Shown here: positions 3,658 to 17,842 of the stretch, in pieces
How positions within the stretch are numbered: the first letter of the stretch is position 1
Layout: each line of letters starts with the position of its first letter
Origin: a virus
Length of the DNA: 38,775 bases
IMG/VR virus record: IMGVR_UViG_3300028610_002131
Coordinates: 1-38,775 of that record
Reading direction: 5' to 3' (one strand)
Notes under the pieces: model-generated
Seen by the model: only the letters and a program-made list of their open reading frames with translations
Database searches by the model: none
Told to the model about the DNA's origin: nothing
Program-made: the position numbers and the translations under genes

Positions 3658-5052
3658 TTACACCGGATATGAGAAGACTCGAACATCACGGGCGAACAGG
3701 ATAGCTTCAGTGTGCCGGAAAGCAATATCCATGTACATCCGCATCTTGATGGACCGCAGATCAGCAAACCAGTTCTGGCCAGCAAGCCCTTGGTCACTCA
3801 GGATCTCGACCCCGCCCCATCTACCGACCACGCACTCGGACCAGTTGCCGAAGAATAGGTCAGTATAGGTAGTGGCACTACCTGGGGTGGTTGCGGAGAC
3901 CGTTCTATTCGCAGCGATCTGGGTGGTCTTATCAAAGTCACCCAGAAGATCCGCCAAGGCCCGCATCGTCAGTGGCGGCAGACCCGCCAGATACGGTCCA
4001 GGCTCCACGCCTTCAACATCCTGACTTGAGAAGTTCAGAACACGAAGGTTCGCGAGGTCTCTGAAGAATGACGGACTACTGATCCATGCAGCCGTGTTAT
4101 TGATGGTAACCTTAGCATTCTCCAGCTGGAGCATCATCAAGTTCATCTTCGACCAGTCACCACGTCCACCAATGGGAGTTCCCCCAGGAGCAGTTGTGGT
4201 TCCATTCTCGAAGTAGAACTGACTGATGTTGGGGTCGTTGATGATACCACGCGGCTCAAAGTTCGTGCCTGACCCGAAGGGGATAACACGATCAATCTCC
4301 GCAGCGGCAACCCGACGCATGTCGTTCCTCAACAGGCTGTCGAACCCGAAGCTTGCCCTGGTGGCCATCTCATCCGTAAGCGTGGTCAGGAGTCCCAATT
4401 TCTTGGGGTCTAACGTCACGACTGCGGTGGTGGGCTCTGATGCCGTGTACGGCACCTTTTCCCCAATCCAGAACGCGACCATACCAGAGTTGAACTTCGG
4501 AATGCGAACCTTCGCACCAGTCAAGCCGGTGATCAAGCTCACACGAGTACGACCCGTCGTTGCATCCAAGGCAAGGAACACACTGTCCTCGTACAGAGCC
4601 TCAATGACATCAGCGATGACCTGGTCCGGCACGAACCAGCCACCTTCCGAGTCAATGCCTGCGACATTCTTAGCAATGTCGGTAGTCTGCTTCATGATCT
4701 CGTGCTCTTTGGTATCCTTCCACATCGACCAGTTGGTCGCTGCTCCGGCAAGAGCCTTGATGAGATTGAAGTCACGACCTTCATCCTCAATACCCGAGAT
4801 GTACAGACCACCTCGGTCCTTACGGATCTGATCTTTGAGAGTCTCCTGACCAGACTTGATCTCATCGATCCTGCTCAGGATGTCCTTCAGATCTATGCCG
4901 TCTAGCACATCGCTGACGGCCTTGTAAGACCCGATCATCCTCTTCTGTTCCTCGACGGTAACCTCAAGCTTCGAGATGCGGCTGAGAAGCTTATCACGCT
5001 CCTCCTGCCGCTTCTTGACTCTTGCGGCTTTTTCCTCTTCAGTCAAAGGCAT
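3658..5052 (-). CDS. Major capsid protein, HK97 fold, with N-terminal delta domain
   Basis: A 464-residue protein with the HK97 capsid layout. Residues 1-80 are a charged coiled coil (delta/scaffold domain; EEKAARVKKRQEERDKL, EIKSGQETLKDQIRK), which is normally removed by the prohead protease. The fold follows: DSVFLALDATTG, an E-loop region, VTLDPKKLGLLTTLTDEM in the spine region, and FGSGTNFEPRGIIND, a typical P-domain/A-domain signature. It forms the icosahedral shell. The gene lies directly after the protease gene, the standard order, and has AGGAGG 8 bases upstream of its ATG. Confidence 0.9.
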   Translation of the reverse strand: MPLTEEEKAARVKKRQEERDKLLSRISKLEVTVEEQKRMIGSYKAVSDVLDGIDLKDILSRIDEIKSGQETLKDQIRKDRGGLYISGIEDEGRDFNLIKALAGAATNWSMWKDTKEHEIMKQTTDIAKNVAGIDSEGGWFVPDQVIADVIEALYEDSVFLALDATTGRTRVSLITGLTGAKVRIPKFNSGMVAFWIGEKVPYTASEPTTAVVTLDPKKLGLLTTLTDEMATRASFGFDSLLRNDMRRVAAAEIDRVIPFGSGTNFEPRGIINDPNISQFYFENGTTTAPGGTPIGGRGDWSKMNLMMLQLENAKVTINNTAAWISSPSFFRDLANLRVLNFSSQDVEGVEPGPYLAGLPPLTMRALADLLGDFDKTTQIAANRTVSATTPGSATTYTDLFFGNWSECVVGRWGGVEILSDQGLAGQNWFADLRSIKMRMYMDIAFRHTEAILFARDVRVFSYPV

Positions 5053-6349: not shown

Positions 6350-8794
6350 TCAGCCTACTGGTACAAGAACACAGCGGCAGTTTATGACTTGCCTCGGCGG
6401 ACCATCCGGATCCGTCGGGTAGAGGAGGGTGCCCGGTTCACCGAGATCCTCCATGAAATTGTGACCGATATTCTGGGGTCCTGTACTGCCCAAGATAACA
6501 TGGGCTTCACGAACCTTTTCGTCACCAGCAGTTGCCCAGACAACTCGTTTGACACCTTCTGCTGCAAAGATCAATGAACGGACTCCGCTCATAGTTTGTG
6601 CTGTCTCTGTTCGGGCAATACGAAGCTCACGGAACGGACTTACCTGTTGGTTGAATACCTGACGAATACTATTCTGAAGCTGATCGAATCCCGCTCCCTC
6701 AATTATAGCCGTGGCGATGGCCGCACGAAGAGCTCGTCTGATTGTACCATTGACACTACGAATCATTACCGACCTGCGTCGTAGAAAAGTCTCTACCTGT
6801 ATGTCTGTCGGGTCAAACTGGAAAAACCTTCCTAACTCACTTTCCGTAAAGTCCGTGATATCCTCAATCATCTTGGAGTACAGAGGTGCGGTACGTGCTG
6901 TAATGTCCAATCCTGCTCGCTCTAGATTGAAGAGTATAGTCTCTATCTCCTCGGGAGTAAAGAGATCCTTGTTCACCTTTGATCCAGATGCTACTCGGTC
7001 TAGCTTATCCCTAGACACTCGTTCAAAGTTGATGAGTGTTTCTCTGCGTAAATTGAACACATGATTACGAAAACGCTTGCGGAATAACTTTTCATGTGCC
7101 CCAACAAGCTTCGCAAACGCATCACGTATTCGATTGGTATCCTTGGTAACCTGATCAAACCAAACCTTACTCGTCATACCACGTTTATGAGCTAGTGAAG
7201 AACCCTCTGGTCGTTCAAATCTTAATCGAGGCAAAGCCTGTTCATCCTCCTCATCTCCCGGCTCTTCATCTGGAGGCGGAGCATTCGGATCAACAACCGT
7301 ATCCTCCGGAGGATCTTCTGCATCTTCTAAGATACGATCAATCGTTGTCAGCAACGGCGGGACCAAAGCCTCTTCGCTACCATCGTAATCCGCTACATCG
7401 ATCCCCACTAGCTCTAGAGCCTGGCCCGGTGGCATATGGATCTCTTGGCCTGTAAGCTCCTTGACTGTCTTTACTTTCGAAGTGATATCCTCTTGAAGTG
7501 CTTCGACATCCTCTAGCTTAAACGCAGCAACCGTTGAATCTGGTTCAATAACCATAATCGTTTTATCAATCACACTCTCGTAGTATCGCACTCTTGGCAG
7601 CAACGAGCGTTGCCAGAAGGCTCGATCCTGCGCAAGATGCGTGGCATGATTGATGTCCTCCGTCAAGCCAAGCACTGACTTGTTCGTCCGGAGAACCGCC
7701 ATAACCGTTTCCCGATTGAATGACTGGAGATCGAAAAACTGCATCTCCTCTGGAGTCATTCCCGTCTTCGTCCATTTAAGATCCCCATCAAGTACCGCAA
7801 TCTTTCGACGAGAATGGGGACCTCCATGACGATCATTCCACTTCTTGATGATCTTTCGTTTCTCTCTGGGATCAATTGGCTCGGCACTCGTCAGAATACC
7901 ACCAGGATCTGCTCCGTTTTCAAGAACAGCAGTGTTAACCTGTTGCGCCATTATATCTTGAATGATAGCTCCAGCTGCTGGATTGATAAGGCTGAGACCT
8001 TCAACCACATGATCCATATTGAAGTTGCGAAAATGAACAACTTCCTGCATCATCAGTCTAATTGATTGACCATTTGCTCCAACGCCTAGACCCTCAGATT
8101 TTCCCGTGACATCAAATTGCCATCCTACTTGAACGCCTGTACCTTGATCAATTAATGGCTTCATGTCCACAGGATGAAGTACAAGGATCCGTTCAATACG
8201 ATCCCCAGGAAACCATGGCGCACCGCTCTCTGTCACCAACCACCAATAACAGTTACCTGCTAGCTGATAGTATACGTCTGTCGCTTTCCACAACGTCACT
8301 CCGGCCATACGAGGATTAGGATTGCGGAACAACTTACTAAGCGGATGATCTGTATCTTCTTCTAGAGCCTTGATATGTTTGCCAGTAAACCGCCGTTTGG
8401 TATGAGTATGACGTTGGAGTATACTACGGTTCTTGCCCCTGTTAGGAATCCACGCGGAAGTATGTTTGACTCGGCCGCGTCGTAGAGATTGCTTTGCACG
8501 CCTAGTCTGTTCTGCTTCCGTCTCCTCCCATATCAGGAAATCTACCTGAGCAATATTATCTGCGTTCGCGGCCGCAGATGCAAAAACCCACGCATGATTG
8601 CAATACGGCTGCTTTGCACGTGAGGCAGCAGGACTACGAGTATCCCTAAGAGCCATTTCAAATAGCTGACTCTTCTGGATCGATTGCCAAGTCTTCTCTT
8701 CCTTCAGGCTAAGAGGCCCATCAGAAACTTCCCCGATAGGGACTAGCTCTTGGCCTTGTGGCCCTAGAAGGTATTTGGGCTTTTCCTGCGGCAT
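6350..8794 (-). CDS. Portal protein fused to a MuF-like minor head domain
   Basis: An 814-residue protein. Residues about 130-480 follow the portal family: WKATDVYYQLAGNCYWWLV, the DMKPL segment, GVGANGQSIRLMMQEVVHFRNFN and the ENGADPGGILTS segment. The portal forms the dodecameric DNA gate. An acidic Pro/Glu linker (about 485-530) follows. The C-terminal end is a MuF/SPP1 gp7 domain with IARTETAQT and YPTDPDGPPRQVINCRC (NCRC at 805-808). In most phages these are two genes (about 500 and 250-400 residues), so this is a fusion. The start sits 4 bases past a small upstream gene and lacks a clear ribosome site. Confidence 0.88.
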   Translation of the reverse strand: MPQEKPKYLLGPQGQELVPIGEVSDGPLSLKEEKTWQSIQKSQLFEMALRDTRSPAASRAKQPYCNHAWVFASAAANADNIAQVDFLIWEETEAEQTRRAKQSLRRGRVKHTSAWIPNRGKNRSILQRHTHTKRRFTGKHIKALEEDTDHPLSKLFRNPNPRMAGVTLWKATDVYYQLAGNCYWWLVTESGAPWFPGDRIERILVLHPVDMKPLIDQGTGVQVGWQFDVTGKSEGLGVGANGQSIRLMMQEVVHFRNFNMDHVVEGLSLINPAAGAIIQDIMAQQVNTAVLENGADPGGILTSAEPIDPREKRKIIKKWNDRHGGPHSRRKIAVLDGDLKWTKTGMTPEEMQFFDLQSFNRETVMAVLRTNKSVLGLTEDINHATHLAQDRAFWQRSLLPRVRYYESVIDKTIMVIEPDSTVAAFKLEDVEALQEDITSKVKTVKELTGQEIHMPPGQALELVGIDVADYDGSEEALVPPLLTTIDRILEDAEDPPEDTVVDPNAPPPDEEPGDEEDEQALPRLRFERPEGSSLAHKRGMTSKVWFDQVTKDTNRIRDAFAKLVGAHEKLFRKRFRNHVFNLRRETLINFERVSRDKLDRVASGSKVNKDLFTPEEIETILFNLERAGLDITARTAPLYSKMIEDITDFTESELGRFFQFDPTDIQVETFLRRRSVMIRSVNGTIRRALRAAIATAIIEGAGFDQLQNSIRQVFNQQVSPFRELRIARTETAQTMSGVRSLIFAAEGVKRVVWATAGDEKVREAHVILGSTGPQNIGHNFMEDLGEPGTLLYPTDPDGPPRQVINCRCVLVPVG

Positions 8795-8797
8795 AGC

Positions 8798-9016
8798 TTA
8801 TATCCCGAATAAATGCGCGTGGGTGTGATAGACAGCTGCGGCCATCCCCTTCTCTACAGGAGTCAATCCACGTGCTGGCTTAGGCTTCTTAGGAGCAGCG
8901 GGATCTGACGCCAAGCACATTCTCAGCGGCAATATGCTGATTGGTTCAATCACTTTACGTGATGGCCTCTTTACAGTACGACGGACGGTCTTTCTGGTAG
9001 CTTTTTTCTTGCTCAT
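8798..9016 (-). CDS. Small basic hypothetical protein
   Basis: A 72-residue protein with a strongly basic N terminus (SKKKATRKTVRRTVKRPSRK) and a short helix near the end (PVEKGMAAAVYHTHAHL). The basic tail suggests nucleic acid binding, but no domain is recognised. Its ATG overlaps the upstream stop (ATGA), and its stop lies next to the portal start, so it is part of the packaging/head operon. Confidence 0.6.
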   Translation of the reverse strand: MSKKKATRKTVRRTVKRPSRKVIEPISILPLRMCLASDPAAPKKPKPARGLTPVEKGMAAAVYHTHAHLFGI

Positions 9017-9315
9017 GATCTTCCATTCACACGTGCTAATGCCTTTGTGACTTCTGTTAGGGCAGTACTATTGTTATGCATTGCCTCGTGGACTTTACCA
9101 AGGACATGCGTATTTCTATCTAGGGCTTCTCGGCTGTCTCGTTGAGCCAGATTAGATTCATTACCCATTTCCTTCAATATCTGGTCTCGTCTCTCCAGTG
9201 TTTCCTTGATCTGATCGTCACGTTTTGACAGGTACTTCATAAACAGCCATACCATAAGTACCATTGTTGCAAGCTCAGGTACTCTTTCTAACAGATTCCG
9301 AAACAGAACTTCCAT
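9013..9315 (-). CDS. Membrane-anchored coiled-coil protein (possible lysis accessory)
   Basis: A 100-residue protein. One transmembrane segment (about 14-28, ELATMVLMVWLFMKYL) is followed by a long charged helix (RDDQIKETLERRDQILKEM and beyond) ending with KALARVNGRS. This layout fits a small holin-like or inner-membrane protein. It sits immediately downstream of a spanin-like gene. Function is inferred only from topology. Confidence 0.55.
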   Translation of the reverse strand: MEVLFRNLLERVPELATMVLMVWLFMKYLSKRDDQIKETLERRDQILKEMGNESNLAQRDSREALDRNTHVLGKVHEAMHNNSTALTEVTKALARVNGRS

Positions 9316-9750
9316 CTATGAGCCTTTCCGTTTCCTGATCCCCCGGACTAGAAGGTAGAGGACAAACAAGCTTGCAATGAATGCTCCTACGAATATGTAC
9401 CGTTTATCAAAATCGCTCGAACCTTGTTTTCCTATTCTCCTTTCTGGTGATTTTTCAAGACTCCCAATTATATCATCAATCGGAACGAAATGCACCGTCA
9501 TACCTGCCGGTATTGTGGTGCGTTTGCTTATATCGAAGGTCTTGGTGTCCTTATTCCATAGCAGGAATCGTGCTGTGATCGGCTCTGCCGTGAGCATTGG
9601 CTCAGTTTCATTCGGAATCGCCGGAATCAGCGTTATGTTCGGACCCGGACCCCGACAAGCTGTCACGTAGGTGATCGACACTAGCATCCCCAAAATCAGA
9701 ACTAGCACGCTCTGCTTCGTCGGGTAATGATTGACGATCCCAGATGACAC
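9316..9750 (-). CDS. Unimolecular spanin-like lipoprotein with C-terminal TM
   Basis: A 144-residue protein. The N terminus holds a hydrophobic stretch ending in a lipobox-like VTAC (Cys32), a signal for lipid attachment at the outer membrane. A beta-rich periplasmic domain follows. A C-terminal transmembrane helix (about 118-136) with a basic tail (VRGIRKRKGS) ends the chain. This outer-anchor/inner-anchor layout is the hallmark of u-spanins (such as T1 gp11, about 130 residues), which fuse the two membranes in the last step of lysis. No sequence homology is claimed. The first 143 bases overlap another reading frame (9608-9799). Confidence 0.55.
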   Translation of the reverse strand: MSSGIVNHYPTKQSVLVLILGMLVSITYVTACRGPGPNITLIPAIPNETEPMLTAEPITARFLLWNKDTKTFDISKRTTIPAGMTVHFVPIDDIIGSLEKSPERRIGKQGSSDFDKRYIFVGAFIASLFVLYLLVRGIRKRKGS

Positions 9751-9799
9751 TAAACAATGCCTTGAAAATACTAGAAATTATATCCAGAATGAAACTCAC
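9608..9799 (-). CDS. Overlapping small membrane-active ORF
   Basis: A 63-residue frame starting at GTG 9799, which shares GTGA with the stop of the preceding gene. It overlaps the spanin-like gene by 143 bases in another frame. The N terminus is an amphipathic or membrane-active helix (MSFILDIISSIFKALFSVIW), and the rest is acidic and disordered. Overlapping frames are common in spanin loci, but the ribosome site is weak and this could be incidental. Confidence 0.4.
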   Translation of the reverse strand: MSFILDIISSIFKALFSVIWDRQSLPDEAERASSDFGDASVDHLRDSLSGSGSEHNADSGDSE

Positions 9800-9996
9800 G
9801 CTCCGCCGCCCTGTGCCTCCTTAATTGCGTCGATCTTCGCCATGAGACTGGCGTGAGTGGCATCAACTTCTGCCTTGGTGCTGTTTAAATCCTCGATCGT
9901 GATGTCCTGAGCGTTATTGACGTCGATAACGCCAAGCAGTTCACGTGCACCCATCATCGCGAGTCGGATCAGTGATATCATCTCTACTGGGGGCAT
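9796..9996 (-). CDS. Small hypothetical protein (66 aa)
   Basis: A 66-residue protein, largely helical: a hydrophobic N-terminal helix (MISLIRLAMMGARELLGV) and a charged helix (NSTKAEVDATHASLMAKIDAI), ending in Gly-rich GGGA. The start shares a base with the upstream stop, with AGGAGGTGAATA as a strong ribosome site. Not recognised; its place among lysis-like genes suggests a holin-like or antiholin-like role, which is inference. Confidence 0.6.
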   Translation of the reverse strand: MPPVEMISLIRLAMMGARELLGVIDVNNAQDITIEDLNSTKAEVDATHASLMAKIDAIKEAQGGGA

Positions 9997-10349
9997 TATT
10001 CACCTCCTCGCGTTATTAGGTACGGCAGCACACGAGCGATGGCTTCTTCAACAACATCGAGAAAGCGTTCAAAAACTTCACCTCCCTGGGGAGTCGTCCC
10101 TGCTGCGAGGTCAGCAACCATTTGATTGAACGCTTCATCAAGAGCTCCCTTGCCCATTTGTAGATAAGGCTGGAGAGCCACGAGATCTTCGTCCTGAACT
10201 AGACCCGAATCATGAGCCAAGTTCAAGCTTTTTTCAGTGCCCTGGAAGACCAGTGCAGCTTGTTTCCACTGCTTTGCTGGACTTGCTCCACAGCCAACCA
10301 GGGCAACGAGGACCAACAATGCAGTGATCTGCGAAAGTCTTCGTCGCAT
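9996..10349 (-). CDS. Phage lipoprotein with helical periplasmic domain
   Basis: A 117-residue protein with a clear lipoprotein signal: basic MRRRL, a hydrophobic stretch, then the lipobox LVGC (Cys20). The mature part is mostly helical (AAKQW-like start, DEAFNQMVADLAAG, FLDVVEEAIARVLPYL). It is probably exported and lipid-anchored. It lies between a holin-like gene and other small membrane genes, suggesting a lysis or superinfection-related role. The family is not recognised. The start overlaps the upstream stop by one base (TAATG). Confidence 0.65.
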   Translation of the reverse strand: MRRRLSQITALLVLVALVGCGASPAKQWKQAALVFQGTEKSLNLAHDSGLVQDEDLVALQPYLQMGKGALDEAFNQMVADLAAGTTPQGGEVFERFLDVVEEAIARVLPYLITRGGE

Positions 10350-10570
10350 TATTTCGCTCCTACATCTTCAGAGGTTTTGTTACCGTCACGGGCGAAGATC
10401 AAACCCACAGCGGCGGTAAGGGCTGGAATGACAACATTCCAGTTTGGATTTGTCGTGGCATCACCGTCTAGCAGAAGCATCCCGGCTGGAATGATTACTG
10501 CTAGAGCGGTCATTATGGCCATTGACGTCGTCTGCCACGACTTTATCCCCGTCACAAGTGCTTTTGGCAT
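10349..10570 (-). CDS. Holin-like small membrane protein (two TM segments)
   Basis: A 73-residue protein. I chose the ATG at 10570 because AAAAGGAG lies 7 bases upstream; an in-frame start at 10621 would add 17 poorly supported residues. Two hydrophobic helices are visible (about 16-34, TSMAIMTALAVIIPAGML, and about 45-60), joined by a polar turn with DGDATTNPNW. Size, topology and place next to the lipoprotein and spanin-like genes fit a class II holin, which would open the inner membrane. It could instead be another membrane protein. Confidence 0.6.
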   Translation of the reverse strand: MPKALVTGIKSWQTTSMAIMTALAVIIPAGMLLLDGDATTNPNWNVVIPALTAAVGLIFARDGNKTSEDVGAK

Positions 10571-10670
10571 TACGGTCTCCTTTTGTAATACCTTCTGGAT
10601 TGAGCTTGGCACCGTGCACAAGCTTCTTTTGGAAGTCTGTCATGTGTTGTCTTGTATCTGCTTTGTTCAT
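10461..10670 (-). CDS. Possible small ORF overlapping terminase stop and holin-like gene
   Basis: A 69-codon frame whose ATG at 10670 shares ATGA with the terminase stop. Its first 37 codons (MNKADTRQHMTDFQKKLVHG and on) fill the otherwise empty 96 bases before the holin-like start. The rest overlaps the holin-like gene and looks like a Ser/Asp-rich shadow. The overlap style supports translation; the composition argues against it. Confidence 0.3.
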   Translation of the reverse strand: MNKADTRQHMTDFQKKLVHGAKLNPEGITKGDRNAKSTCDGDKVVADDVNGHNDRSSSNHSSRDASARR

Positions 10671-13132
10671 CCGACTGCAACCGAAGGCGATCCGCCTCGG
10701 CTCCTCATTTGTTCACTGATGCCCCAGCCGAAGATCGTATCATCGTGACAACCAGGGTCTGCTTCAAACTTACCATTCTTCTGAAGTTTGAATGTCGTGC
10801 ATTGGCCAAGATATACATCATCATGAATTAGTTCGGGATTGTCATCTTGAAATACACGGTCATCACTAAGAATCATCGGACGAGTACTACTGTTGGTGTC
10901 CCATCCTGACCGCCGCTTGTCGAACTTGAACAGATAACGATATCCAATCTTCCTGACTTCTGATATCACGGCATGACCGTGATTGTTCCGCTCAATGCCC
11001 CAGAATGCATTATTGTACTCCCTACACATCTTCACGCCTAGTTCCGCTAGATACTCAGGTCGCCATAGACCATGAGCCCAGGCGACCTGTTCACCTGTTC
11101 GCTTGTCCTTAATGCATACGTTTCCCAGATCCCCTCCTCTGATGCCTTCAGACGTATCGCTTCCCGCAACATATCTACGTCCCTTGACGGGGGACTTGTA
11201 TCTGTAGATGTTGCCCCCTGGAACGGACTGGACCTTGTATGTCCGGGCGAGTTTTTTGAGAAGGGCAAGAATGCTGCCAATGTCATAATAAGCGGTCCCG
11301 CTAGTGAGGAAGCAACTTTCGTCATCTTCAGGATACTCTTGAGGAAACAGCACACCCAGGTCACGTATCTTCTGTCTTCGCCAGGCAACCTGGGCCATAG
11401 TCAGTACAACTTTCCATTCGGAAGCTGCACGTTTGATTAGATCTTTTTCTTCTTCTGAAAGGGTCTCAGCAATCTCTTGCGGATTGTAGTCCCCCTCTTG
11501 TTTCGTATTCAGAGGATCAATATACCAAGGCAGAAAGATAGGCCACCAGTTATTTGCTCCAACCTTGGCCTCGCGATAATTCGGACAGAACCATCCATCC
11601 ACCCCATTGGCGGTACTCTCCATAACCATAGTACCGTGACTGGTTGCTTCCTGAAGTCCAGCAATCAAGTCATTTACAATGTCCGCTTGGTTAGGTCCAA
11701 TACACCATTTGGATACCTCAGAGCCATGTACACGGCTGAGAGTATCCCCACGACCAGGAGCGTTTCCCGAAGCAGTGGCGGTAAAATACTGACTATCAAG
11801 AATAGGAAACTCGAGACGGCGAGCATTTCCCACGCCTTTAATTTCTGGAGCCTCGGGGTCGTTTTCGTGATACCGTTTAGAAATCCTGAAGATTTCCGTA
11901 GTGCTTTCTTCTGTGTGGGCGAGAGTGAGACATCTGGTATGCTTTCGAGTAGTCGCCAGCTTATAACTTTCTGCTTGCTCATAGGTTGTAAATCCTCCCC
12001 GTCGATATTTGAGCAAGATGCATTTGCTGAAACCTTTTGCTGCTGCACGTGCCTTCTCCTGCTCATAAAACATCTGCAACGGCCAACACTCAAATGGCAC
12101 CACGCTGCCAGTCTTATCACGAATCCAAAGTCTTTTGGCCGTGAAATCACTGACCTCCATGGTAGAATATTCATGCCGTAGGAGCCGACGATCTATTGTG
12201 TTCTCAACCTTGTCCTTCAAGTTATCAGCAAGCTCGCTGTGAAACTCTACTGCTCCCTCCTCGAAACGTTGAGGCTGAGCTTGATCAATACGTTTGCCCA
12301 AGACAAGTTGCTCGTACTCAGGTGACTTCTTGCCATGCTCCTTTGTGATCTTAGCTATCGTCTTCTTGTCGATACAACCTGCGATAGCAATACGGCCATT
12401 CTTAATGTTGGGGTGATTAAGCCCGCTCATTGTCAAACCGTCTCTGCTATAGGTAGCCCAAGCACCGTTGTCTTGGCCTCGTCCTATGATGATACGGGCA
12501 AAACCATTAGCCTCTGCCATATCCATAATGATATGCCAGGCTTCTTGAGGATATCGATCTGCGGCATCTAAGATCAGCATTCCATCTGACGCTTGTGTAC
12601 TTGCGTACTGTTTGGCTTGCGAAGCCTTAAAGGCAGTCAGATACCAATTCTCTGACAGATCGACAATTGTCCCCGACCATTGTCCGGGTAGAGGCTTCAC
12701 GGCTTGCTGACTAAGATCCCTCATCTGGCCCCAGAGACCACTCATCAGCAAAGCCTTATTAGGTGCTGTAACAAACACCTTGGTTCCCGGTCCTCGAGCA
12801 TGCAACCACCATAGTCCCAGTATCGCAGCTACAAATGTTGATCCCACGAAGTTCGCAGAGATCATAGAAACATCTTGATCCTCTTCCGCTAAAGCAATCA
12901 CCTTCCTTTGATCGAGCGAGAACCTTTTAATATTCAGGATTTCCTTGGCAAACGCAAGAGGATCTGAAACGTAATCTGTGAAGTGAATGCGATTGAGTTG
13001 TGCAGACACCTTCGCCTTGAGCTCTCTACGCATAAACTCCCCAGGCGTAAGCTCATGGCGTGCAGCTTCCGGCCGCTTTAGCGGTACACGTCGTTTGTGT
13101 ACCCGCCAATCTTTTGTAGCTTCAACTGTCAT
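10667..13132 (-). CDS. terL: Large terminase subunit with an extra N-terminal ATPase-like domain
   Basis: An 821-residue protein from the ATG at 13132 (AAAGGATAAGG upstream). Residues about 55-285 look like a terminase ATPase (DPLAFAKEILNI, VFVTAPNKALLM, SPEYEQLVLG), but the Walker A place reads NFVGSTF (94-100, no Lys) and Walker B LILDAAD (186-192, no Glu). A complete terminase follows: LKYRRGGFTT (374-383, Walker A-like), HGSEVSKW (469-476, Walker B-like), MESTANG (504-510), then nuclease motifs GSDTSEG (657-663), IERNNHG (713-719) and HDDTIFGWGI (796-805). It packages DNA and cuts concatemers. Usual length is 450-650. The double-ATPase layout is unusual. Confidence 0.88.
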   Translation of the reverse strand: MTVEATKDWRVHKRRVPLKRPEAARHELTPGEFMRRELKAKVSAQLNRIHFTDYVSDPLAFAKEILNIKRFSLDQRKVIALAEEDQDVSMISANFVGSTFVAAILGLWWLHARGPGTKVFVTAPNKALLMSGLWGQMRDLSQQAVKPLPGQWSGTIVDLSENWYLTAFKASQAKQYASTQASDGMLILDAADRYPQEAWHIIMDMAEANGFARIIIGRGQDNGAWATYSRDGLTMSGLNHPNIKNGRIAIAGCIDKKTIAKITKEHGKKSPEYEQLVLGKRIDQAQPQRFEEGAVEFHSELADNLKDKVENTIDRRLLRHEYSTMEVSDFTAKRLWIRDKTGSVVPFECWPLQMFYEQEKARAAAKGFSKCILLKYRRGGFTTYEQAESYKLATTRKHTRCLTLAHTEESTTEIFRISKRYHENDPEAPEIKGVGNARRLEFPILDSQYFTATASGNAPGRGDTLSRVHGSEVSKWCIGPNQADIVNDLIAGLQEATSHGTMVMESTANGVDGWFCPNYREAKVGANNWWPIFLPWYIDPLNTKQEGDYNPQEIAETLSEEEKDLIKRAASEWKVVLTMAQVAWRRQKIRDLGVLFPQEYPEDDESCFLTSGTAYYDIGSILALLKKLARTYKVQSVPGGNIYRYKSPVKGRRYVAGSDTSEGIRGGDLGNVCIKDKRTGEQVAWAHGLWRPEYLAELGVKMCREYNNAFWGIERNNHGHAVISEVRKIGYRYLFKFDKRRSGWDTNSSTRPMILSDDRVFQDDNPELIHDDVYLGQCTTFKLQKNGKFEADPGCHDDTIFGWGISEQMRSRGGSPSVAVG

Positions 13133-13415
13133 CCTTATCCTTTGATTTCCTCTTCTTAGCAGCAGCAGCGGCAGAATCTGCAACAGTGGCAGCCATAGTA
13201 GGTTCAGGCACATGCTTTACGCCTGCTGCCTTCAAAATATTTACCTCTTCTATCCTACGAGCATGTTTCTCGTACAAAGCTGCAACTTGATTGAGGTGGT
13301 TTGCTGCATACTCAAGATGCTCCCTGCCCCCGTGTATCATGCCTCCACGGGCTTCCATCATGTGTAGTACCATAGAACGAATTTTAGCAGAATTTTGGAA
13401 ATCCTCTGGCCTCAT
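13122..13415 (-). CDS. Small helical protein upstream of terminase
   Basis: A 97-residue helical protein: HLEYAANHLNQVAALYEKHARRIEE forms a probable coiled coil, followed by an Ala-rich linker and a basic KKRKSKDKDD tail. Its stop overlaps the terminase start by 11 bases, so the two are translationally coupled. Position would suit a small terminase subunit, but there is no visible DNA-binding helix-turn-helix and it is short for one. AGGAGC precedes the ATG. Confidence 0.55.
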   Translation of the reverse strand: MRPEDFQNSAKIRSMVLHMMEARGGMIHGGREHLEYAANHLNQVAALYEKHARRIEEVNILKAAGVKHVPEPTMAATVADSAAAAAKKRKSKDKDDS

Positions 13416-14272
13416 TAATTTCGTGCTCCTACAAGTCTTGCGTGGAATTGATCTAAGAAACTCTCTGTAATTTCCCGACCTATTTGAACCTGATACTCTT
13501 TGCCATTTTCAAAGATAAATGACGAACTGCGTTTGATCTCGGTTGTTCCTACCGAAGTAAAGGACACTGTCGAATTGGCTACCTCTACACCGTCTGTGAG
13601 ATTAAAAACTCTGAATGTTATGGCAGGAGAGGCCCCGGTAGCCCTGGCCTCAACAAACCACTTGACCGCATTGGCATAGTTGCTCGCTACATACTTGAAC
13701 ACGAGTCCTACAGGCTGATAGAATCTAGTGTCTTCTACCTCGGTAACACCTACTGTACTATCAATGACCTCGATCTGCTCTACGCCAAGGTTGGTATCCT
13801 CTGTTTCCGTAACGCCGATGGTACTGCTGAAGATTTCAACAATAGCCTTTACATGCAGATTGCCTTCCGTTATACCAATTGTTTCATCATCTACGGGCAA
13901 GTGTACAATGAATGGAACCAAATCCTCCGTAACACCTACGATACTTTCAACGAGTTGCGGTCCAAAAGGTTGTACGGTAACTATGCCCTCGGCAATACCA
14001 AGAGTACTCGCAAGCAGATCAAAGAACCCTGGTACACGATCATTGGTCTCTGTAACGCCTATGGTCTCATCAAGAACCTTATTAAAGCCCAGAATGAAAG
14101 TGATAGTCTCTGTGCCGCCCACAACATCATTTAACTCAAGCTTCTGCGTGGACTTGAGGGCGGCATCTGCGATCCCAACGTTCTCGTTGAACTCCTTAAG
14201 CATCGGTATAACGCGAGTCAGAATCTCGGCAGATCCGACGTCGTTATCGATGACTTCTACAAGAGCTACCAT
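13415..14272 (-). CDS. Structural protein with tandem GVTE-type repeats
   Basis: A 285-residue protein. Residues 1-185 contain about nine imperfect repeats of roughly 18-25 residues, each centred on a (T/V)(I/V)G(V/I)(T/A)E core: DVGSAE, NVGIAD, TIGVTE, TLGIAE, IVGVTE, TIGITE, TIGVTE and TVGVTE among them. The last 100 residues form a separate beta-rich domain (FRVFNLTDGVEVANSTVSF, ENGKEYQVQIG). Repeats like these suggest an elongated fibrous or surface-binding protein, perhaps part of the tail tip or an adhesin. The start and upstream stop share TGATG. Confidence 0.6.
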   Translation of the reverse strand: MVALVEVIDNDVGSAEILTRVIPMLKEFNENVGIADAALKSTQKLELNDVVGGTETITFILGFNKVLDETIGVTETNDRVPGFFDLLASTLGIAEGIVTVQPFGPQLVESIVGVTEDLVPFIVHLPVDDETIGITEGNLHVKAIVEIFSSTIGVTETEDTNLGVEQIEVIDSTVGVTEVEDTRFYQPVGLVFKYVASNYANAVKWFVEARATGASPAITFRVFNLTDGVEVANSTVSFTSVGTTEIKRSSSFIFENGKEYQVQIGREITESFLDQFHARLVGARN

Positions 14273-16834: not shown

Positions 16835-17213
16835 ATTCATCTCCAATCACACGAGCTATGAAACTAGCTTCTACAGCACCTACCGCATCAGCAATAAGAT
16901 GGGGCTTGGCTCCGAGTTGTCCCCGCCAAGGTGAATTGCCATAAAGTCCTTGCGAAGAGAAAGGAAATGCCGCTATACCTCTTCCCACAAGGACTTCCTC
17001 TCCTGCATCTACAGCATTATCATCATCTGCATCGCAGAACACTATGATGTTACCAGCAGCAATTCCACTTGCCTGTACATAACTAAAGACAAGCCGCTCA
17101 TCTGCTGCGAGGGTAACGGCTGCACCGTTCAGGTCAAACAGCACCATCTCAATTGCCGTAGTTGCATCGGCAGACTCAAGATTACTATGTACCGTTATAT
17201 TTCGATTGCTCAT
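16827..17213 (-). CDS. Small beta-rich structural protein, paralog of the previous gene
   Basis: A 128-residue protein from the ATG at 17213 (an alternative start at 17225 would overlap the upstream gene further). Segments VLFDLNGAAVTLAADER, IIVFCDADDDNAVDAGEEV and RGQLGAKPH align in order with the adjacent gene at 16469-16834. It overlaps that gene by 8 bases. The function is probably structural, by context. Confidence 0.55.
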   Translation of the reverse strand: MSNRNITVHSNLESADATTAIEMVLFDLNGAAVTLAADERLVFSYVQASGIAAGNIIVFCDADDDNAVDAGEEVLVGRGIAAFPFSSQGLYGNSPWRGQLGAKPHLIADAVGAVEASFIARVIGDEYG

Positions 17214-17842
17214 TGTGGTAACCACTCCAACTTGTCTAGTGAAACCCTGAGCTGATGGAGCTTCTCGGTATCATCACCGATGATCTCCATGACTGTATTG
17301 ATCAGTTCGCCTACTAGCAGCGTAACCTGAACCATAGTAAGAGTATTGCCCTCTTGCTTGGCTCGGATGTCTGCGATAGTCTGGATGACCTTCCGTATCG
17401 ATTCAACCGTCTGGCGTACTCGGCTCAGCATCACATTGTATTGACGCCAATACTTCGCCCGCTCGCTCGCGTCCATCTCATCAATCTCGTCCTTCCAATA
17501 TTCATAACGGGCCGAGGTCTCCTCAAGTTGGGTGGCAAGGGAGGCTCTAAGGGTTCCAAGTTCTTGGCTGAGGTCGTCGTCACCCATCTCAGCCAACATT
17601 GTTTCAAGAAGCTCACCAAACTTTCCACTCACAACTTGGCGAAGACCTGCGGCCCTGAAGATCGTTCCATTTTCTACAGCACTGTCATAGTTTGATTGAT
17701 CTCTGCGTCCACCGTGCCTCCTGCAATACGTGTGTCCGCTTTCAGCCCATAGCTTGCAACGCTTTTTGGCTAAACCCCGTTTGCCAGGGATTACCTTCTT
17801 GCACTGCTTGCGACCGCTGGCTGCTACTCTGAGATCATCCAT
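17210..17842 (-). CDS. Zinc-motif (C-C-C-HGG) protein, possible small terminase
   Basis: A 210-residue protein. Residues about 12-45 contain CKKVIPGKRGLAKKRCK, then YCRRHGG: a C...C...C..HGG zinc-knuckle-like motif that in other phages marks small terminase-type or DNA-binding proteins. The rest is a long helical domain (LGTLRASLATQLEETS, YWKDEIDEMDASERAKYW, VESIRKVIQTIADI) that could oligomerise. Small terminase is a reasonable but unproven call, because the gene is more than 4 kb from the large subunit. Confidence 0.5.
   Translation of the reverse strand: MDDLRVAASGRKQCKKVIPGKRGLAKKRCKLWAESGHTYCRRHGGRRDQSNYDSAVENGTIFRAAGLRQVVSGKFGELLETMLAEMGDDDLSQELGTLRASLATQLEETSARYEYWKDEIDEMDASERAKYWRQYNVMLSRVRQTVESIRKVIQTIADIRAKQEGNTLTMVQVTLLVGELINTVMEIIGDDTEKLHQLRVSLDKLEWLPQ

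Follow-up and report, generated by a model that had tools for sequence, protein, structure and literature searches.

The window analyzed here is the whole 38,775-nucleotide stretch of IMG/VR virus record IMGVR_UViG_3300028610_002131. It contains on its minus strand (13132..10667) a gene for an 821-residue protein that is very probably one large terminase (TerL), in which an extra, degenerate ATPase domain (D1) precedes a live ATPase and a nuclease (together D2). An earlier note on this DNA had placed the gene correctly at 10667-13132. The relevant features are as follows.

13122..13415, minus: 97-aa gene immediately upstream of the TerL gene, overlapping its start (ORF list)
10667..13132, minus: double-layout TerL gene, 821 aa (predicted pseudo-ATPase D1, linker, D2 ATPase, nuclease; ORF, start overlapping the upstream gene's stop, AAGG-rich leader, sister contig L059)
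12290..12979, minus: D1, degenerate TerL ATPase domain, residues 52-281 (hhalign, alignment, HMM E 1.4e-18)
12833..12850, minus: D1 Walker A remnant FVGSTF (GxGKT/S in relatives), the early P-loop basic residue also being gone (I for K/R) (alignment)
12557..12577, minus: D1 Walker B remnant LILDAAD (VDEA in relatives; Asp retained, Glu replaced by Ala) (alignment)
12473..12493, minus: D1 motif III remnant IIIGRGQ (GNPT in relatives) (alignment)
11333..12145, minus: D2 ATPase, residues about 330-600, with LKYRRGGFT P-loop, HGSEV and STANG motifs (alignment; AF2 pLDDT mostly >85)
10670..11332, minus: D2 RNase H-like nuclease, residues about 601-821, with invariant D659, D668, E714, D797 and D798 (phmmer, Foldseek, alignment)
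6350..8794, minus: portal protein fused to a Mu F-like head morphogenesis domain, an 814-aa chain and packaging partner (Pfam PF04860 2e-51, PF04233 2.5e-7)
17210..17842, minus: TerS-like protein with CxxHGG and helical parts, 210 aa, candidate small terminase (HMM of proteins upstream of the relatives' TerL, E 6e-11)

The TerL frame opens at the ATG at 13132, behind an AAGG-rich leader and in overlap with the stop codon of the 97-aa gene; the longest possible ORF would begin at 13213. An internal start that would yield D2 alone was considered and rejected: an ATG is present at 12160, but no Shine-Dalgarno-like leader is visible there. The sister contig L059 is 99.9% identical to the window over 13 kb, and its TerL gene differs by one codon, located within D2; the window has no other near relative. 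A frameshift or assembly error as the cause of the layout is ruled out by this identity, by the single open frame and by the occurrence of the layout in independent contigs and MAGs. The window also encodes the portal protein and a capsid protein (3658-5052), as expected of a head and packaging block around a TerL gene. Between TerL and the portal gene (8798-10621, minus) lie small genes, some with signal-peptide, lipoprotein or transmembrane-like starts, which are possible lysis or holin genes in an unusual place. Just upstream of the TerL block (13415-14272, minus) lies a gene for a 285-aa protein of repeated 'ETIGVTE'-like units.

The two ATPase-type domains

D2 (residues about 330-815) is, judged from its sequence, an ordinary intact TerL with its P-loop lysine at the early, lambda-like place. 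It presents a TerL ATPase followed by an RNase H-like nuclease, and the catalytic residues of both are conserved. Its Walker A motif is LKYRRGGFT, whose lysine stands at the P-loop start, the GK[S/T] position having none, and its Walker B motif is HGSEV. These non-textbook motifs represent the normal state of the family, since 29 aligned relatives show no variation at K375, R377, G380 and E472. The nuclease residues D659, D668, E714, D797 and D798 are likewise invariant. The P-loop of lambda gpA has the same early-lysine form (PMC9410871). The nuclease matches that of RB49 gp17 (phmmer E 0.001) and the structures 3c6a and 5m1f (Foldseek). Thus, the earlier description of the second domain as complete and joined to the nuclease holds for the intact ATPase and nuclease residues but not for a textbook Walker A motif. 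The closest familiar counterpart is the TerL of Stx converting phages such as vB_EcoS_P27, which likewise combines one ATPase with an RNase H-like nuclease and aligns with residues 337-812 at 26.5% identity (E 2e-30). However, TerLs of this type and of the lambda type start at D2 and have no D1. The full protein has 540 matches in public phage records; none covers at least 80% of the query, and the best among the matches listed all fall within D2.

What is the N-terminal domain? The motifs that the earlier note quoted for it are all present: NFVGSTF (residues ~94-100), VTAPNKALLM (121-130), LILDAAD (186-192) and SPEYEQLVLG (270-279). D1 is not recognized as a terminase by Pfam, NCBIfam or PHROGs; it gives a weak match to the unnamed phrog_5902. 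Profile comparison nevertheless aligns residues 52-281 with the N-terminal domains of seven TerLs, including those of phiCD27 and Amigovirus (hhalign probability 98.7, E 4e-16), in an alignment that runs through DPxxFAKEIL, Walker A, VTAPNKALLM, Walker B, motif III and the SPEYEQLVLG element. D1 alone (12227-13132, minus) also matches TerL ATPases of unrelated public phages by tblastn at E 1e-6 to 2e-5 (Parageobacillus phage JGon, 1e-6; ctjtQ328, 1e-5; Arthrobacter phage Molivia and Clostridioides phage phiCD27 terminase B, both 2e-5). A chance resemblance of motifs is ruled out by the profile statistics and by 20 homologs.

Where the seven TerLs have a GK[S/T] P-loop, D1 has FVGST; the basic residue with which their P-loop begins is I in D1, their DEA corresponds to LDAAD, and GRGQ stands in place of their GNP (ANP in one of the seven). 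D1 has therefore lost not only the Walker A lysine and Walker B glutamate, as the earlier note had observed, but both of the P-loop lysine positions discussed for HK97 and lambda TerL (PMC9410871) and the GNP motif as well. Given established TerL biochemistry, a domain with neither P-loop lysine nor the catalytic glutamate would not be expected to hydrolyze ATP. The window D1 is thus, as far as its sequence tells, a TerL ATPase by descent but not a functional one, and the view of a dead terminase ATPase fused before a live TerL is borne out by the profile homology, the residues lost from D1 and those intact in D2. The TerLs of phiCD27, Amigovirus and JGon, whose N-terminal ATPase domains align end to end with D1, keep the P-loop lysine, DEA, GNP and a nuclease of their own, whereas D1 has lost the three motifs and the nuclease.

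An internal duplication of D2 was considered as the source of D1 and rejected. A direct profile comparison of D1 with the D2 ATPase gives only E 0.45, whereas the D1-type TerLs are detectably similar to D2 (E 5e-5), indicating that the fusion joined two TerL lineages. Since D1 resembles another type of TerL rather than D2, the arrangement is a heterologous fusion and not a recognizable duplication.

Relatives and history of the N-terminal domain

Homologs collected from IMG/VR and from genome scans include 20 aligned TerLs, the window protein among them, in which D2 is preceded by an N-terminal domain of about 170-330 aa; L019 and L143 share this layout. They come from metagenomes and from two bacterial MAGs, one of Nitrospinia (L056) and one of Robiginitomaculum that carries the TerL in a prophage (L057). 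Single-protein scans from L060, L016 and L067 added only one double-layout TerL, L143, and genome searches with the D1 alignment recovered only the two MAGs already known. The loss of the Walker residues, which the earlier note wished to see followed in such homologs, is uniform: all 20 aligned D1s lack a GK[S/T] P-loop and, at the aligned Walker B position, an intact DE pair. The double-layout TerL of L019 (5173-8790), also seen in L096, carries an intein-like insert of about 350 aa with a LAGLIDADG-like motif and an ...SGILVHN/C end, adjoining the QEYPEDDESC element at the nuclease start.

The D1s of the relatives form one family, each of the 19 being found by a leave-one-out HMM at E 2e-8 or better. 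The D1 of L016 is predicted to fold with a mean pLDDT of 91.5 (AF2, 19 sequences), and the 25 best PDB matches of the model are all TerLs (Sf6 gp2, P74-26, T4 gp17 and D6E; best E 1.2e-6, TM about 0.45-0.54), while its named matches in a viral structure library are overwhelmingly terminases. D2 does not account for these matches, since the modelled stretch stops short of its P-loop. The model thus assigns a RecA-like TerL fold to the relatives' D1, and the two outcomes that would have spoken against the ATPase reading, a different fold or an unrelated domain in homologs, did not appear; the D1 of the window itself is modelled in the full-length protein at low confidence (pLDDT about 30-65).

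Is the D1 of the window the same domain as that of its relatives? The relatives' D1 profile does not detect it, and by sequence the two are not demonstrably orthologous. In the D2 tree (IQ-TREE), the double-layout TerLs and six single-layout ones form a 27-member clade (support 100/99), the six singles group together (95/84) and the window and L067 are sisters at the base of the clade (97/91). This tree requires two changes of layout, most simply one gain and one loss. The single-layout relatives do not carry D1 as a separate gene; the D1 HMM finds none elsewhere, and a small terminase (TerS) gene abuts TerL in L058 and L065.

The D1 of L067 belongs to the relatives' type, which that of the window detectably does not, so the window D1 is either a slow-decaying form or a later replacement, and these are about equally probable. 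An explanation compatible with any function, credible if somewhat short of even likelihood, is that the relatives' D1 is an old pseudo-ATPase whereas that of the window is a newer capture of the ATPase of another TerL, which replaced the old one in the same slot and also died. Two histories would explain why the relatives' profile misses the window D1 even though the closest relative in the D2 tree has the other type, and why the window D1 alone still lies near the phiCD27-type TerLs (E 1.4e-18), which the D1 of no relative approaches. However, slower decay in the window lineage would look the same. The relatives' D1 also matches the TerL N-domain profile, weakly but in the right motif region only (hhalign E 0.0014, probability 17.6), and both types of D1 have a tryptophan at the same place (DNGAW / DRGHW), which speaks against two histories.

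Nei-Gojobori estimates, for which some dS values are near saturation, give D1 dN/dS values of 0.11-0.16 for one group of relatives and 0.21-0.27 for a second. For L005 and L007, the value is 0.153 for D1 vs 0.113 for the D2 ATPase and 0.139 for the nuclease; for L062, L064 and L066, it is 0.21-0.27 for D1 vs 0.06-0.11 for D2, and D1 evolves 2-3x faster than D2 in one group. The relatives' D1 is under purifying selection. The window D1 cannot be linked to it by sequence, so that it may be called kept by analogy. Since about 20 related viruses share the layout, it is probable that the dead domain does structural or docking work and is not a sequencing error.

Small terminase candidates and the role of D1

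TerS-like genes lie upstream of TerL in the window and in most double-layout relatives. A CxxHGG protein is found there in 11 of these relatives, and an HMM built from seven such proteins finds four further relatives and the window protein at 17842-17210 (E 6e-11), none of which were in the model. A CxxHGG homolog is also encoded two genes upstream of the annotated large terminase of phage ctIqW946. In L056, an HTH protein matches the PHROG terminase small subunit (E 6e-4) and has homologs in L069 and L077; in L063, L070, L081 and the L005 group, some of them on short contigs, no clear TerS is seen. From their position and domain make-up, we infer that the CxxHGG and HTH proteins are TerS. D1 occurs with both types, and there is thus no strict pairing of D1 with one TerS.

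We propose, with about even confidence in the explanation as a whole, that a TerL acquired by fusion at its N-terminus the ATPase domain of another TerL lineage, and that this domain lost ATP binding and hydrolysis and was retained as a pseudo-ATPase with a docking or assembly role. D1 would act as a non-catalytic module at the protein end where other TerLs bind TerS. In the motor ring, the dead D1 on each live D2 may hold TerS, neighboring subunits or both until the motor has reached the portal and begun to run, and D2 alone would hydrolyze ATP and cut DNA. The docking role taken by itself is tentative and somewhat less probable than its absence. It is suggested by P22, in which TerS docks at the N-terminus of TerL (residues 1-58), the position of D1 (PMC9611059). 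However, the TerS-binding part of P22 TerL comprises about 23-58 residues and not a whole domain, and the contact of D1 with TerS is hypothetical. The occurrence of D1 with two types of TerS-like genes and its faster evolution in one group count against docking, as does the existence of six members of the same D2 clade without D1, which indicates that D1 is dispensable in some lineages.

A role independent of TerS would fit the two TerS types. Instead of docking TerS, D1 could form a passive second ring, comparable to the degenerate ring of double-ring ATPases, which grips DNA or stabilizes the ring of subunits, given that the relatives' D1 keeps the fold of TerL ATPase domains, which form rings, and that one D1 per D2 would stack a dead ring on the live one. 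We consider this unlikely. In most members the net charge of D1 lies close to zero (-7 to +10), and its alignment contains no conserved basic patch, which lends no support to a DNA clamp, and one subclade has lost D1 while still having TerL. Less probable still is that D1 is a decaying relic of the fusion with no present function. Its missing catalytic residues, its loss in one subclade, its faster evolution than D2 and the small indels between near relatives would all suit a relic, but the dN/dS values are well below 1, the 19 relatives' D1s recognize one another with nearly invariant W and HW residues, and the frame is open in >20 distinct sequences. Finally, the earlier suggestion that D1 may replace TerS, in which case it would recognize DNA or regulate the motor in cis, draws on its N-terminal position and on the fact that Pfam, PHROGs and NCBIfam name no TerS among the window proteins scanned, but D1 is a TerL ATPase by homology, and the CxxHGG and HTH genes, including the ctIqW946 homolog, make this reading very improbable.

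The double layout has partial precedents. In double-ring AAA+ ATPases (NSF, Cdc48-type), one ring is degenerate. The window TerL resembles them in that each chain joins a live NTPase module to a weak or dead one, but they belong to another ATPase clade with another function, and a D1 ring is hypothetical. The Phi29-type packaging ATPase has an inactive vestigial nuclease domain (PMC9410871) and thus also keeps a dead terminase domain in a packaging motor; there, however, the dead part is the nuclease of a single-ATPase protein and not an extra ATPase. We regard it as rather doubtful that a lineage of tailed-phage motors has composite TerL subunits of one live and one dead ATPase, in which the dead one is essential to assembly or start-up and its slot was taken on at least two occasions by a dead terminase ATPase, once of the window type and once of the relatives' type.

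TerL, one of the best-studied proteins of phages, also serves as a marker gene, and searches with such a marker can split double TerLs of this kind or align the wrong ATPase. The double-ATPase layout, here a conserved TerL clade with an added pseudo-ATPase, was not met in 50,697 phage records or in the open-access papers searched. Such TerLs are a natural case of separated functions within a ring motor, from which the contribution of a non-hydrolyzing ATPase fold may be learned. They also bear on the cooperation of TerS and TerL, in which the mechanism of stimulation is poorly understood (PMC9611059).

The six single-layout TerLs without D1 are those of L008, L010, L013, L058, L065 and L071. 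Where the upstream gene is seen (L008, L010, L058, L065 and L071), it is of the HTH type and never CxxHGG, and the loss of D1 and the type of TerS may be linked. In L058, the HTH protein directly upstream of TerL (7243-7851) matches phrog_645. This family bears the label 'Rnase E', but the position of the L058 protein points to a small terminase, and the label may be wrong.
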